Of a stretch of 64,000 nucleotides of DNA, positions 10,437 through 14,195 are shown in pieces (the first letter of the stretch is position 1; each line of letters begins with the position of its first letter). The stretch lies in assembly GCF_019024325.1 (NCBI RefSeq), contig NZ_JAFNJS010000006.1:248001-312000 (forward strand), written 5' to 3'. The DNA is from Falsiroseomonas tokyonensis (GTDB lineage Bacteria; Pseudomonadota; Alphaproteobacteria; Acetobacterales; Acetobacteraceae). The notes beneath the pieces were generated by a model. The model was not told where the DNA came from and made no database searches. It saw only the letters and a program-made list of their open reading frames with translations. A program made the translations under genes and the position numbers.

Positions 10437-10583
10437 GGTCAATCCAGTCCCTTCCCAATCTGTGGCCGTGCGGGGCTTTCCCCGGGGCATTGCCGCCCGG
10501 CGCCCGGCACCGCATCTTGCGGCCATCAGGCGCCATGAATGTGGCGGCCGCTTATAGTGCCGTGTTCCCGCGGGAGGAAACCC

Positions 10584-12095
10584 ATGCTCGACCTGCCCCA
10601 CAAGACGCCCGAGGCGCCGACCACCGACCCCTTCGCCCTGGCGCGCGCGCTGTCCGGCGTGCATCTGATCGGCGGGCGCTACGTTCCGGCCCGCTCCGGC
10701 AAGACCTTCCCCGTGGTGAACCCGGCGACCGGCGCGCAGGTGGCGGAGGCCGCGGAAGGCGATGCGGCGGATGTCGATGCCGCGGTGCAGGATGCGGCCC
10801 GCGCCCAGAAGGCCTGGGCCAAGGTGCCCGCCCGCAAGCGCGGCGCCCTGGTGCATGCCTGCGCCGCCGCCATCCGCGCCCATGTCGATGAGCTCGGCCT
10901 GCTGATCGCGCTGGAAACCGGCAAGGCGCTGCGCACAGAATCCCGCGTCGAGGCCAATGTGGTGGCCGATGTCTTCGAATTCTTCGGCGGCCTCGGCGGC
11001 GAGCTGAAGGGTGAGAGCGTGCCCTTCGCCCCCGATGTGCTGTCCGTGACGGTGCGGGAGCCGCTGGGCGTGGTCGGCGCCATCATCCCCTGGAACGTGC
11101 CGATGCTGCTGATGGCGCTGAAGGTCGCGCCCGCCCTCGTCGCCGGCAATGCGGTGGTGGTGAAGTCGGCCGAGGAGGCGCCGCTCGCCGTGCTGCGGAT
11201 CTGCGAGATCATGAACCGCATCCTGCCGCCCGGCGTCTTCAACATGGTCTCCGGCATGGGCCCGGAATGCGGCGCGCCGCTGGTCGCCCATCCGCTGGTG
11301 AAGAAGGTGACCTTCACGGGTTCGGTGGAGACCGGCAAGATCGTCGCCCGCGCGGCCGCCGAGAAGCTGATCCCGGTCACGCTGGAGCTCGGCGGCAAGT
11401 CGCCGATGATCGTCTTCGCCGATTGCAACTTCGAAAAGACCGTCGCCGGCGCGCTCACCTCCATGCGCTTCACCCGCCAGGGGCAGAGCTGCACCGCCGC
11501 CAGCCGCATCTATGTCGAGCGCCCGATCTTCGACCGCTTCGTGGCGGAGATGAAGCAGGCGGTGGACAAGATGGTCATGGGCGACCCGCTGGACGAGAAG
11601 ACGGACATCGGCACTATCGTCAGCCAGGGCCAGCTGGAGAAGGTGAAGGCCTTCATCGAGGAGGGCAAAAAGACGCCCGGCGCCACCGCCCATGTCTGCT
11701 CCACCATGCCGACCGATCCGGCGCTGAAGAAGGGCCTCTTCGTGCAGCCCGTCATCTTCACCGGCCTCGATGGCAGCTCCCGCCTGGTGCGGGAGGAAAT
11801 CTTCGGCCCGGTCACCGTCATCCAGCCCTTCGACGATGCGGAGGCCGTGCTGGCGGAGGCGAATGACAGCGAATACGGCCTGGCGGCCAGCCTCTGGACC
11901 AACAACCTGAAGATCGGCCTGGACCTGGCGCATCGGCTGGAGGCCGGGCTGGTGCAGATCAACCAGAACCTGGTGGTGCAGGCGAACCTGTCCTACGGCG
12001 GCGTGAAGTCCTCGGGCCTCGGCAAGGAAGCTTCGCTGGAATCCATGCTGGAGCACTTCACCCACAAGAAGACCATCATGGTGAATATGGGCTGA
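10584..12095 (+). CDS. NAD(P)-dependent aldehyde dehydrogenase family protein
   Basis: This 503-residue enzyme oxidises an aldehyde to the carboxylate, with the hydride passing to NAD(P). The family residues are in place: N171 (PWNVP), the cofactor Lys in VVKSAEEAP (192-200), FTGS near 244, E268 in LELGGKSP, and nucleophile C303 in RQGQSCTAASR. The start at 10584 follows GGAGGAAA by a few bases. Substrate is unresolved; the sequence resembles the betaine and semialdehyde group only loosely. Two long palindromes lie 20 bp past its stop and may end transcription. Confidence 0.92.
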   Translation: MLDLPHKTPEAPTTDPFALARALSGVHLIGGRYVPARSGKTFPVVNPATGAQVAEAAEGDAADVDAAVQDAARAQKAWAKVPARKRGALVHACAAAIRAHVDELGLLIALETGKALRTESRVEANVVADVFEFFGGLGGELKGESVPFAPDVLSVTVREPLGVVGAIIPWNVPMLLMALKVAPALVAGNAVVVKSAEEAPLAVLRICEIMNRILPPGVFNMVSGMGPECGAPLVAHPLVKKVTFTGSVETGKIVARAAAEKLIPVTLELGGKSPMIVFADCNFEKTVAGALTSMRFTRQGQSCTAASRIYVERPIFDRFVAEMKQAVDKMVMGDPLDEKTDIGTIVSQGQLEKVKAFIEEGKKTPGATAHVCSTMPTDPALKKGLFVQPVIFTGLDGSSRLVREEIFGPVTVIQPFDDAEAVLAEANDSEYGLAASLWTNNLKIGLDLAHRLEAGLVQINQNLVVQANLSYGGVKSSGLGKEASLESMLEHFTHKKTIMVNMG

Positions 12096-12114: not shown

Positions 12115-12156
12115 CTACAGCACGATCTGTCCGAATGGACAGATCTCGTGCTGTAG
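12115..12156. terminator. Long palindrome A downstream of the aldehyde dehydrogenase
   Basis: The arms CTACAGCAC-GATCTGTCC and GGACAGATC-TC-GTGCTGTAG pair over 18 bp around a GAAT loop, with one 2-base bulge. It lies between converging genes and could act as a bidirectional terminator, although no long T-run follows. Alternatively it is one unit of an interspersed palindromic repeat, since a second palindrome with the same layout starts 13 bp later. Confidence 0.6.
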
Positions 12157-12168
12157 AAGCTATTGTTT

Positions 12169-12221
12169 CTAAAGCACGAAATCGGTTCACACTGGTTCAG
12201 TGTGAACCGATAGTGCTTTAG
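12169..12221. terminator. Long palindrome B, containing the stop codon of the first exported paralogue
   Basis: The outer arms CTAAAGCAC / GTGCTTTAG (9 bp) and inner arms TCGGTTCACACTG / CAGTGTGAACCGA (13 bp) form an imperfect 53-base palindrome with a small internal loop (GAAA against TA). The TAA stop of the minus-strand gene at 12218-12664 lies inside its right arm. It is likely a transcription end for one or both converging genes, or a REP-type element. Confidence 0.6.
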
Positions 12222-12664
12222 CGTGTACAGTAGGGATGGAAGGACGTGCCCCGCATCGTGATGGTGGCGGGCGTTACCGGGAAGAGCGAGATGGGGCAGG
12301 CATGGGCGACGCTGAAGCCCGTGTCGGAATAGGCTGAGACGCGGACGCCGAGCACGCCCGCCGGCGCCGTGACGCACTGCCGCTGCCCCAGCAGGAAGTT
12401 GGTGCGCGTGCTCAGCTTGATGACGGGCAGCCCCGCGCGCTGGAAGGCATCGATGTCGATGCTGCCGACATAGCCGCCGCGGTGATCGACGCAGATTTCG
12501 ATCGGGCGATCGCTGGGCTGCGCCAGAGCCGGGCCGCTGGCGGCGAGCAGGGCGGCCAGCGCGGCGATGCGGCCAGCGCTGCGCCAAGCGGATGCGCCGT
12601 CTGGCGTCGCATCCGCCCCCTGCGTCACGAGGCTCGTCCTGGGCGTCGTGTGTCGAGGCGACAT
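12218..12664 (-). CDS. Small exported four-cysteine protein, paralogue 1 of 4
   Basis: I recognise no named family. The 148-residue product has a basic N-terminus, a hydrophobic stretch and an Ala-Gln cleavage site (ASGPALAQ), so it is probably exported. The mature part is about 100 residues with four cysteines in the pattern ICV ... GQRQCVTAPAG ... HAC ... PYCTR. These are shared by all four cluster members and suggest two disulfides. The C-terminal strand TITMRGTSFHPYCTR is the most conserved part. It is about 80% identical to paralogue 4 over the mature region (79 of 99 positions by my count). The start at 12664 is chosen because it gives a clean signal peptide. Confidence 0.8.
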   Translation of the reverse strand: MSPRHTTPRTSLVTQGADATPDGASAWRSAGRIAALAALLAASGPALAQPSDRPIEICVDHRGGYVGSIDIDAFQRAGLPVIKLSTRTNFLLGQRQCVTAPAGVLGVRVSAYSDTGFSVAHACPISLFPVTPATITMRGTSFHPYCTR

Positions 12665-12743
12665 GGTGGTTCGGACCTTGCGGCTATGCTGTTCTTCGTG
12701 GGGAAGTGGCGACGCAATTTCGGCCGGGCGCCGGCGGGGCAGG

Positions 12744-13130
12744 TCAGCTGGTGCAATGCGCCTGCAGCGAGGTGCCGCGCATGGTGATGGTGGTCGGCAC
12801 CACCGGCCGGATGCGCAATTGGCAGGCGTCCCGCCCGCCCACCACCGAGAGCGAGACCTGGACCTCCCAGCTGCCGGCCGGCGCGGTGCCGCAGCGCTGC
12901 TGCCCCACCGGCACAGACTCGTCGGTGAGGATGACCTGGGTGTGCAGTCCGCCACCCTCGATGTAGTAGCGCGCCGTGACCATCATGCGGGCGACATAGG
13001 CGCCATTCTGCTGAACGCAGATCCGGGCGGGCGTCGAATTGACCTGCTGCGCCAGGGCCGGCGGGGCAACGAGCAGGGCGGGCAGCAGCAGGCACAGGGC
13101 CGGGGCGACCCGATCAGGGCGATGTGGCAT
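12744..13130 (-). CDS. Small exported four-cysteine protein, paralogue 2 of 4
   Basis: The 128-residue product has a signal peptide (ALCLLLPALLVAPPALAQ) and shares the cysteine frame of the cluster: RICVQQNGAYV, GQQRCGTAPAG, RDACQLRIRPV and TTITMRGTSLQAHCTS. The centre (MMVTARYYIEGGGLHTQ) differs strongly from paralogues 1 and 4. The start at 13130 has AAGGAG eight bases upstream. It lies 28 bp downstream of paralogue 3 and 79 bp upstream of paralogue 1 on the same strand, so they are likely co-transcribed. The function is unknown. Confidence 0.8.
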   Translation of the reverse strand: MPHRPDRVAPALCLLLPALLVAPPALAQQVNSTPARICVQQNGAYVARMMVTARYYIEGGGLHTQVILTDESVPVGQQRCGTAPAGSWEVQVSLSVVGGRDACQLRIRPVVPTTITMRGTSLQAHCTS

Positions 13131-13158
13131 GCGGCATCTCCTTGGCTGGTCGGGCACC

Positions 13159-13539
13159 CTATTGGGTGCAGGAAAACTGCAGGGTGGTCCCGCGCGCGGT
13201 GACGGTGATGGCCCGCACCGGCTGCACCCGGATCCGGCAGGCTTCCAGGAAGTCGGACCCGTTGAAGACGCGGACCAGGATCTCGACCATGGTGGTGCCG
13301 GACGGCGCAGTGACGCAGAGGCCCTGCGCCACCGGAATGCCCGCCTGCAGCCCGAGTACGCGCTCTTCGGTACGCTGGGTGCCACCCACCGGCACCATGC
13401 CCCGGATCTGCGTGCTGATGACGAAGCCGCCGCGATTCTCGACGCAGATGCGATGCTCCTGCGCTTCCGCCGGCGGCGATGCGGCCAGCAGCAGGGCCAG
13501 GGCGGGAAGCGCGAGGGAGGCGTGGCGCAGCCGGATCAT
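13159..13539 (-). CDS. Small exported four-cysteine protein, paralogue 3 of 4
   Basis: The 126-residue product has a signal peptide (LALPALALLLAASPPAEAQ) and a mature part of about 100 residues. It carries the cluster pattern HRICVENRGGFV, GLCVTAPSG, LEACRIRVQPV and TVTARGTTLQFSCTQ. It is the most divergent copy in the centre. The start at 13539 is preceded by GGGGAG at a good distance; the longer frame upstream adds no family sequence. It is followed 28 bp later by paralogue 2. Upstream is a 269-bp AT-richer gap that probably holds the promoter for paralogues 3, 2 and 1. Confidence 0.8.
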   Translation of the reverse strand: MIRLRHASLALPALALLLAASPPAEAQEHRICVENRGGFVISTQIRGMVPVGGTQRTEERVLGLQAGIPVAQGLCVTAPSGTTMVEILVRVFNGSDFLEACRIRVQPVRAITVTARGTTLQFSCTQ

Positions 13540-13599
13540 GGAAACTCCCCTTTTGCGGAAAGCCCGCGCCGCAGGAGGATCTTGGGCGCGAAGGACGAG

Positions 13600-13760
13600 A
13601 CGCAGACAGAAACCGGGGCAGATACAAAAACCAAGAAGCTCTCGCTTCTCCAAAAAATGCAAAATGTGCCGCTGACGATGATCATTCTTGAAACTGCGCG
13701 CGATTTCGTCTGTCCCGGTATTTCGGTTAATGCATTAAGATCATCGCCGTTACGCGGAGA
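13600..13760. promoter_or_regulatory. AT-rich intergenic stretch inside the exported-paralogue cluster
   Basis: In a window that is otherwise very GC-rich, this segment has runs such as CCAAAAAATGCAAAATG and a perfect 12-bp palindrome TTAATGCATTAA at 13727-13738. It also has a small GAAGC-TCTC-GCTTC hairpin near 13636 and the palindrome ATGATCAT. It lies just upstream of paralogue 3 and downstream of paralogue 4. It is a plausible promoter and operator region for the three genes to its left. I could not fix -35 and -10 boxes. Confidence 0.4.
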
Positions 13761-13808
13761 CAAGCGCCTTCCGGTGGCTGCGCGGTCCTGCCAGCGGGCG
13801 CGCCGCGC

Positions 13809-14195
13809 TCAGCGAGTGCAGAAGGGGTGGAAGGACGTTCCCCGCATCGTCACCGTGGTGGGCGCCACCGGAAAGATGGTGATGTGGCAGGCATGGACGA
13901 CGCTGAAGCCTGTGTCGGAATAGGCCGATACACGCACGCCAGTGGCACCGATCGGCGCCGTAACGCATTCCTGCTGGCCCAGCAGGAACTGCGTCCGAGT
14001 GCTGAGCGTGATGACGGGCAGCCCGGCCCGTTGGAACGCAGCGATGTTGAGGCTGCCGATATATCCGCCGCGATGGTCGACGCAGATGACAATGGGACGA
14101 TCGCTGGGTTGCGCCATTCCACGGCCGGCGCCTGCCAGTAGCAGCAACCCCCCCGCGATCCAGACCCTGCGCCGCAGCCCCATTTGCCGCCCCAT
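13809..14195 (-). CDS. Small exported four-cysteine protein, paralogue 4 of 4
   Basis: The 128-residue product has a signal peptide (RVWIAGGLLLLAGAGRGMAQ) and a mature domain nearly the same as paralogue 1. It reads VICVDHRGGYIGSL, GQQECVTAPIG, VHACHITIFPV and TVTMRGTSFHPFCTR. The start at 14195 follows AGGAG by eight bases. It is the outermost and first-transcribed member of the minus-strand cluster. The strong match between the two outermost genes, with divergent copies between them, suggests recent duplication or gene conversion. No named domain is recognised. Confidence 0.8.
   Translation of the reverse strand: MGRQMGLRRRVWIAGGLLLLAGAGRGMAQPSDRPIVICVDHRGGYIGSLNIAAFQRAGLPVITLSTRTQFLLGQQECVTAPIGATGVRVSAYSDTGFSVVHACHITIFPVAPTTVTMRGTSFHPFCTR

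Follow-up and report, generated by a model that had tools for sequence, protein, structure and literature searches.

What are the products of four consecutive small genes in Falsiroseomonas tokyonensis, and what might they bind? The window that we analyzed is a 64,000-nucleotide stretch of contig NZ_JAFNJS010000006.1, and an earlier note on it had pointed to a minus-strand cluster encoding small exported four-cysteine proteins. Judged from sequence comparisons, these proteins form a real, lineage-restricted family that is most likely a stand-alone, disulfide-containing relative of domain 4 (D4) of the cholesterol-dependent cytolysins (CDCs), which are pore-forming toxins. In the CDCs, D4 is a beta-sandwich, made of two four-stranded sheets, that recognizes the membrane. 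CDC domain 4 is known within whole toxins and, in excised form, as a laboratory cholesterol probe. The features of the locus are listed here, with positions counted from the first letter of the window.

12218..12664, minus strand: gene A, putative exported four-Cys D4-like protein, 148 aa (E 5.3e-57 to D)
12744..13130, minus strand: gene B, putative exported four-Cys D4-like protein, 128 aa (E 8.3e-14 to D)
13159..13539, minus strand: gene C, putative exported four-Cys D4-like protein, 126 aa (E 6.7e-10 to D)
13809..14195, minus strand: gene D, putative exported four-Cys D4-like protein, 128 aa (open reading frame)
12169..12221, no strand assigned: strong hairpin starting at the gene A stop codon, between convergent genes (folding)
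12115..12156, no strand assigned: another strong hairpin, shortly downstream of the convergent aldehyde dehydrogenase gene (folding)

Read along the minus strand, gene D comes first, followed by C and B, with A last. An AGGAG precedes the ATG of gene B, and another lies upstream of the gene D ATG at 14195. The gap between genes C and B is only 28 nt, so these two genes may share one transcript. The cluster converges with the aldehyde dehydrogenase gene (10539-12095, plus strand, PF00171) and diverges from a penicillin-amidase-family gene (end 16849, plus strand, PF01804). The two hairpins lie back to back and are perhaps a bidirectional terminator; the 131 nt containing both fold at -73.8 kcal/mol, where shuffled sequences average -33.9 (z -10.8), and those of their arms that were searched have no other copy in the window.

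The protein anatomy given in the earlier note holds for the most part. The hydrophobic N-termini, read by eye, end ALA/Q, ALA/Q, AEA/Q and GMA/Q, and each of these signal-peptide-like starts is followed by a domain of approximately 97 residues with exactly four cysteines in the mature part. No cysteine follows the cleavage site, so by eye the four proteins do not read as lipoproteins; they are predicted to be exported, either to the periplasm or as secreted proteins. As had been described, the outer copies A and D resemble each other closely (79-80% identity between the mature parts) and the inner copies are divergent (to D, 40% for B and 32-33% for C). Of the motifs said to be common to all four, T-x-T-x-RGT is indeed present in each protein, but GQxxCVTAP is exact in A and D only, with B reading GQQRCGTAP and C reading AQGLCVTAP.

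Searches with single sequences do not name these proteins. The window proteins have no Pfam match near the cut-off, and PF17440, the Pfam family for CDC D4 (Thiol_cytolys_C), matches none of the 18 members that we aligned. Likewise, nothing came near the cut-off in NCBIfam for D, B, C and two dispersed copies from the same genome, or in PHROGs for D, B and C, gene A lying outside both of these query sets. The weak names Defensin_big, DUF3551, DUF2790 and VCX_VCY fall far below cut-off and were set aside as chance. Thus far, the description of the proteins as belonging to no recognised family stands.

Besides the cluster of four, the F. tokyonensis genome (6.16 Mb, 59 contigs) carries the two dispersed copies, one on contig C3 and one on C1. 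Both dispersed copies were found with query D (E 7e-5 each), and both have a signal-peptide-like start and four cysteines in the mature part. These six own copies have a common ancestry. They cluster in the tree with support of 93/94, slightly below the tool's 95 mark, so the expansion looks lineage-specific, in agreement with the duplication and diversification that had been proposed. Genes A and D are under purifying selection, with a dN/dS of 0.17 and 60 of 300 nucleotides differing; the corresponding values are 0.36 for a pair of relatives from other genomes (L050/L051) and 0.60 for a distant pair (L049/L048). Two further own-genome matches (L007 and L008), which extend from the signal peptide no further than the start of the mature domain, and four weaker own-genome matches to D were left out of the family.

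A profile built from the six own copies alone (A2) matches proteins in two other genera with E-values of 4.6e-10, 1.5e-9 and 6.5e-9. In the reverse direction, profile A10, built from five relatives in other genomes, finds A, B, C and D as its best matches in the F. tokyonensis genome, at E 4.6e-9 to 2.6e-6. Taken with the dN/dS of A and D, this reverse search indicates that the likeness among the four genes is not due to chance, and the proposal that they share a common domain is supported.

The family is narrowly distributed. Of 397 genomes sampled from the same bacterial family, 10 have a match to a 13-row profile (A3); since the match in one of these, G244, is a CDC itself, four-cysteine members are present in 9 of the 397 genomes (F. 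tokyonensis and eight others) and in 3 of 102 genera. Among those listed, the 12 other genomes of the genus gave no match to this profile. Outside the bacterial family there was none, the single matches at the level of the class (1 of 289 genomes) and of the phylum (1 of 299) both being F. tokyonensis itself. In most genomes 12-17 first-look candidates were scored per genome, so weak members may escape these counts. Among genome contigs, 5 of 31 pattern stretches are carrier loci: one in Sabulicella rubraurantiaca SYSU D01096 (NCBI family Acetobacteraceae), one in a Rubritepida MAG labelled Roseomonadaceae and the others in three further MAGs. The same type of scan with A and D as queries gave 75 pattern stretches, none of them confirmed.

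All four cysteines are invariant in the 18 aligned members. A second copy in genome G337 (L026/L043) also has four cysteines after the signal peptide, is more divergent, and stands outside the 18-row alignment. Three candidates from outside the F. tokyonensis genome (L009, L013 and L015) were rejected as members after inspection, as was L022 (G371) on reading, and five more (L010, L011, L012, L014 and L016) were left out, their matches beginning in the signal peptide and reaching no further than the first part of the mature domain.

Tandem arrangement is not supported as a property of the family. Among the matches listed, the four-gene cluster is seen in F. tokyonensis only; elsewhere the matches lie alone or on different contigs, as do the several matches in each of three fragmented assemblies (G405, G333 and G337), and two of the own copies are themselves dispersed. 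In three relatives (L049, L050 and L051), the D4-like gene is flanked by apparent ileS and ribF genes, with an extra predicted ORF before ribF in L050. The ileS and ribF assignments come from Pfam for L051, as does ribF for L049, and the others were read from translations, including ribF of L048 by eye. This placement suggests that the gene has been inherited vertically at a housekeeping location. At the other loci the neighbours, either listed or scanned in part, differ. At one of these, the D4-like gene is immediately preceded on its own strand by a CHAP-domain gene (L047:5070-5828).

Where single sequences fail, comparison of profiles places the family near CDC domain 4, and the statement that it cannot be placed therefore holds only at the level of single sequences. 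Profile A3, which contains no CDC rows, matches the C-terminal region of an open frame of 494 residues (L040) in genome G244 at E 1.4e-5, a per-genome value from a search of 397 genomes. Pfam identifies this frame as a CDC (PF01289, E 1.8e-78; PF17440, E 2.5e-15 at residues 368-460). PF17440 also scores over its cut-off in two further CDCs (L045 and L046) found in 2 of 200 genomes of the bacterial family. The three reading frames, at G244:C443, G184:C130 and G227:C212, are thus CDCs of the family to which F. tokyonensis belongs.

We aligned the family profiles with the D4 regions of these three CDCs using hhalign. Profile A3 gives a P-value of 1.7e-6 and a score of 37.5 over 86 columns, compared to 17.3 for the best of 200 column shuffles and 9.5 for the reversed alignment. 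The P-values are 2.5e-5 for all 18 rows, 2.4e-5 for the 12 non-own rows and 2.7e-6 for A10, whose five rows are of the GHTG type. Against the single CDC D4s, the scores are 40.5, 26.3 and 21.6 for A3 and 41.3, 27.4 and 23.7 for A10, and all three exceed the best of 140 decoys from predicted genes (15.6 for A3 and 19.1 for A10). When ranked among 2439 reading frames of the retrieved loci, with family-tagged frames not counted, the three CDCs take places 3, 5 and 7 with A3, 3, 6 and 10 with A10, and 4, 6 and 7 with A9. The two frames ranked above L040 with A3 (E 4.7e-27 and 6.8e-23) read as family copies cut at locus ends. In the PDB, CDC D4 accounts for 7 of the 8 matches to A3 up to E 10 (E 0.25-1.6, the other being a zinc-finger protein at 0.73) and for the sole match to A9 (pneumolysin chain 5cr8_D, E 1.5). 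These CDC D4 matches span most of the profile; taken singly, no match reaches significance, nor are the CDC entries independent of one another.

The proteins of F. tokyonensis alone give a weaker signal. The window four align with the same D4s at P 0.004 (a score of 21.2, compared to 16.8 for the best of 60 shuffles) and the own six at P 0.006-0.015, over 61-63 columns, and the own-six profile A2 ranks the three CDCs at 17, 149 and 286. Thus, the connection runs through intermediates. Searches of the F. tokyonensis genome with PF17440, and with a CDC D4 alignment (A6, E up to 10, run without a positive control), gave 0 matches each, and A10 matches the CDC of G244 (E 0.009) and misses those of G184 and G227. 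The case for homology consequently rests on the family profile and its intermediates, and from these we consider the family quite probably a distant homologue of CDC D4.

The alignment allows the proteins to be read in terms of D4. Excerpts of PMC5744101 describe four tip loops of perfringolysin O (PFO), namely L1, L2, L3 and the undecapeptide, that insert into the membrane; the T490-L491 pair of L1 as the cholesterol recognition motif, L1 being the loop through which CDCs contact cholesterol; and H398, Y402, A404, E458 and P493 as well conserved. In our alignment, Cys1 lies just before an L3-like HxGGY, Cys3 just after an undecapeptide-like TG..W, where the register is uncertain, and Cys4 just after an L1-like GT[ST][FL]. 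Cys2 lies a few residues before a turn that we take to be L2-like; the assignment of both L2 and L3 is partly our own assumption. From these positions, each cysteine would sit at the base of one D4 tip loop, and pairing into two disulfides could hold the D4-like tip together.

Besides the cysteines, GT[ST][FL] is among the best-kept parts. Its glycine is present in 17 of 18 rows and its threonine in 14, and the position of the Thr-Leu pair reads [ST][FL] in 11 rows, with an exact TL in 2 (L018 and gene C, whose L1-like loop reads GTTL). The H398-like position is H in 2 rows and N in 11, and the Y402-like position is Y in 10 and either Y or F in 13. The full undecapeptide, ECTGLAWEWWR, is not kept in the 18 rows; of the remnant, the Gly461-like G is found in 14 rows, the T in 8 and the Trp464-like W in 9. 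A divergent pair of relatives (L039 and L042, from G353 and G333) keeps the four cysteines and has Gln-Glu at the L1 pair, which perhaps reflects another ligand.

The proteins resemble CDC D4 in length (approximately 97 versus approximately 100 residues), in motif order, in the profile-profile match and, for part of the family, in the TG..W remnant. They differ from it in being stand-alone, in having a signal-peptide-like start and in their four invariant cysteines. Compared to a whole CDC toxin, A-D are only 126-148 aa long and are without the pore-forming domains 1-3. The three CDCs of the same bacterial family are approximately 460-500 aa long and have no obvious signal peptide by eye; L040 carries PF01289, and the D4 of each is the part that matches. 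The CDC-like proteins (CDCLs) of Bacteroidota are likewise Gram-negative and belong to a related toxin superfamily, but they keep domains 1-3, so the proteins described here are the other, D4-like half. According to excerpts of PMC7527733 and PMC11169675, CDCLs have no similarity to CDC D4, and CDCs are known from a few Gram-negative terrestrial bacteria. Among the matches listed from open-licence literature (titles and the starts of abstracts), there was no description of stand-alone D4-like proteins.

In an excerpt of PMC5375790, D4 is reported to be the smallest PFO segment sufficient for cholesterol binding and to have no cytotoxicity, so a stand-alone exported D4-like protein would be a binder. 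On balance, we think it likely that A-D are exported, disulfide-bonded, stand-alone D4-like binders of a membrane or other ligand that are without a pore-forming part, a reading with which the earlier suggestion of a binding protein fits. Each protein would be a beta-sandwich of approximately 10 kDa whose tip loops, with two disulfides at their bases, would bind a membrane lipid, a sterol-like molecule or another surface ligand. In the absence of domains 1-3, binding would produce no pore, as with isolated perfringolysin O D4, and the diversified paralogues might differ in their ligands or in the conditions under which they act. Candidate ligands are a non-self membrane, an envelope lipid or a glycan.

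Hopanoids are common in related bacteria. The F. tokyonensis genome has no match to the squalene-hopene cyclase N-domain (PF13249), for which the B. subtilis control was positive, and none to the cytolysin core (PF01289), so neither its own hopanoids as the ligand nor a toxin role is supported; hopanoids and a partner toxin encoded within the genome were both set aside.

A D4-like scaffold could instead bind a soluble or cell-wall ligand, such as a glycan, a metal or a peptide, and not membranes. Members differ in their residues at the tip-loop positions, one own copy adjoins a ZnuA gene, and a relative lies by a CHAP-domain gene, all of which would suit such a role; the good preservation of GT[ST][FL] at the L1-like loop, L1 being the cholesterol-contacting loop of CDCs, argues against it, and we consider it rather unlikely.

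It is also unlikely that the proteins are an unrelated family of small exported four-Cys beta proteins, of the envelope or structural, whose D4 likeness arose by convergence in short motifs (GGYV, TG and GT[ST][FL]). Such convergence would agree with the failure of CDC profiles to find the window proteins and with the PDB results, in which no single match is significant and, for profile A8, CDCs make up 3 of 19 matches, the best four and the remaining twelve are not CDCs, and ten are zinc-finger proteins. However, the similarity of the wider family to D4 extends in order over 81-86 columns and scores higher than every shuffle and every one of the 140 decoys.

That the proteins serve in conflict, as decoys or inhibitors occupying the ligand of a CDC-like toxin or as binders of the sterol membranes of eukaryotic predators or hosts, would accord with the binding without lysis of isolated D4 (PMC5375790, in excerpt) and with the patchy occurrence of members and their multiplication in F. 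tokyonensis, but this role, also raised in the earlier note, is very unlikely given that the five neighbours scanned in the window have ordinary metabolic or housekeeping functions, that PADLOC gave nothing near cut-off for any of A-D, that neither 14 pattern stretches from viral contigs (query A5, built from four relatives) nor plasmids (query D only) gave a confirmed match, and that three relatives sit at one housekeeping place beside ribF.

If A-D are exported D4-like binders, natural stand-alone relatives of D4 would bear on the origin of the CDC binding domain, their disulfides could make them stable binding scaffolds with varied tips, and a family unnamed in the curated libraries searched gains a testable label. 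More tentatively, and as a possibility that we regard as doubtful, the bacterial family may hold free-standing, exported, disulfide-bonded membrane-recognition proteins of the D4 type, with CDC D4 being one branch that was recruited into the toxin or left over from it. If this is true, the paralogues would show the CDC tip taking on new ligands without toxicity.
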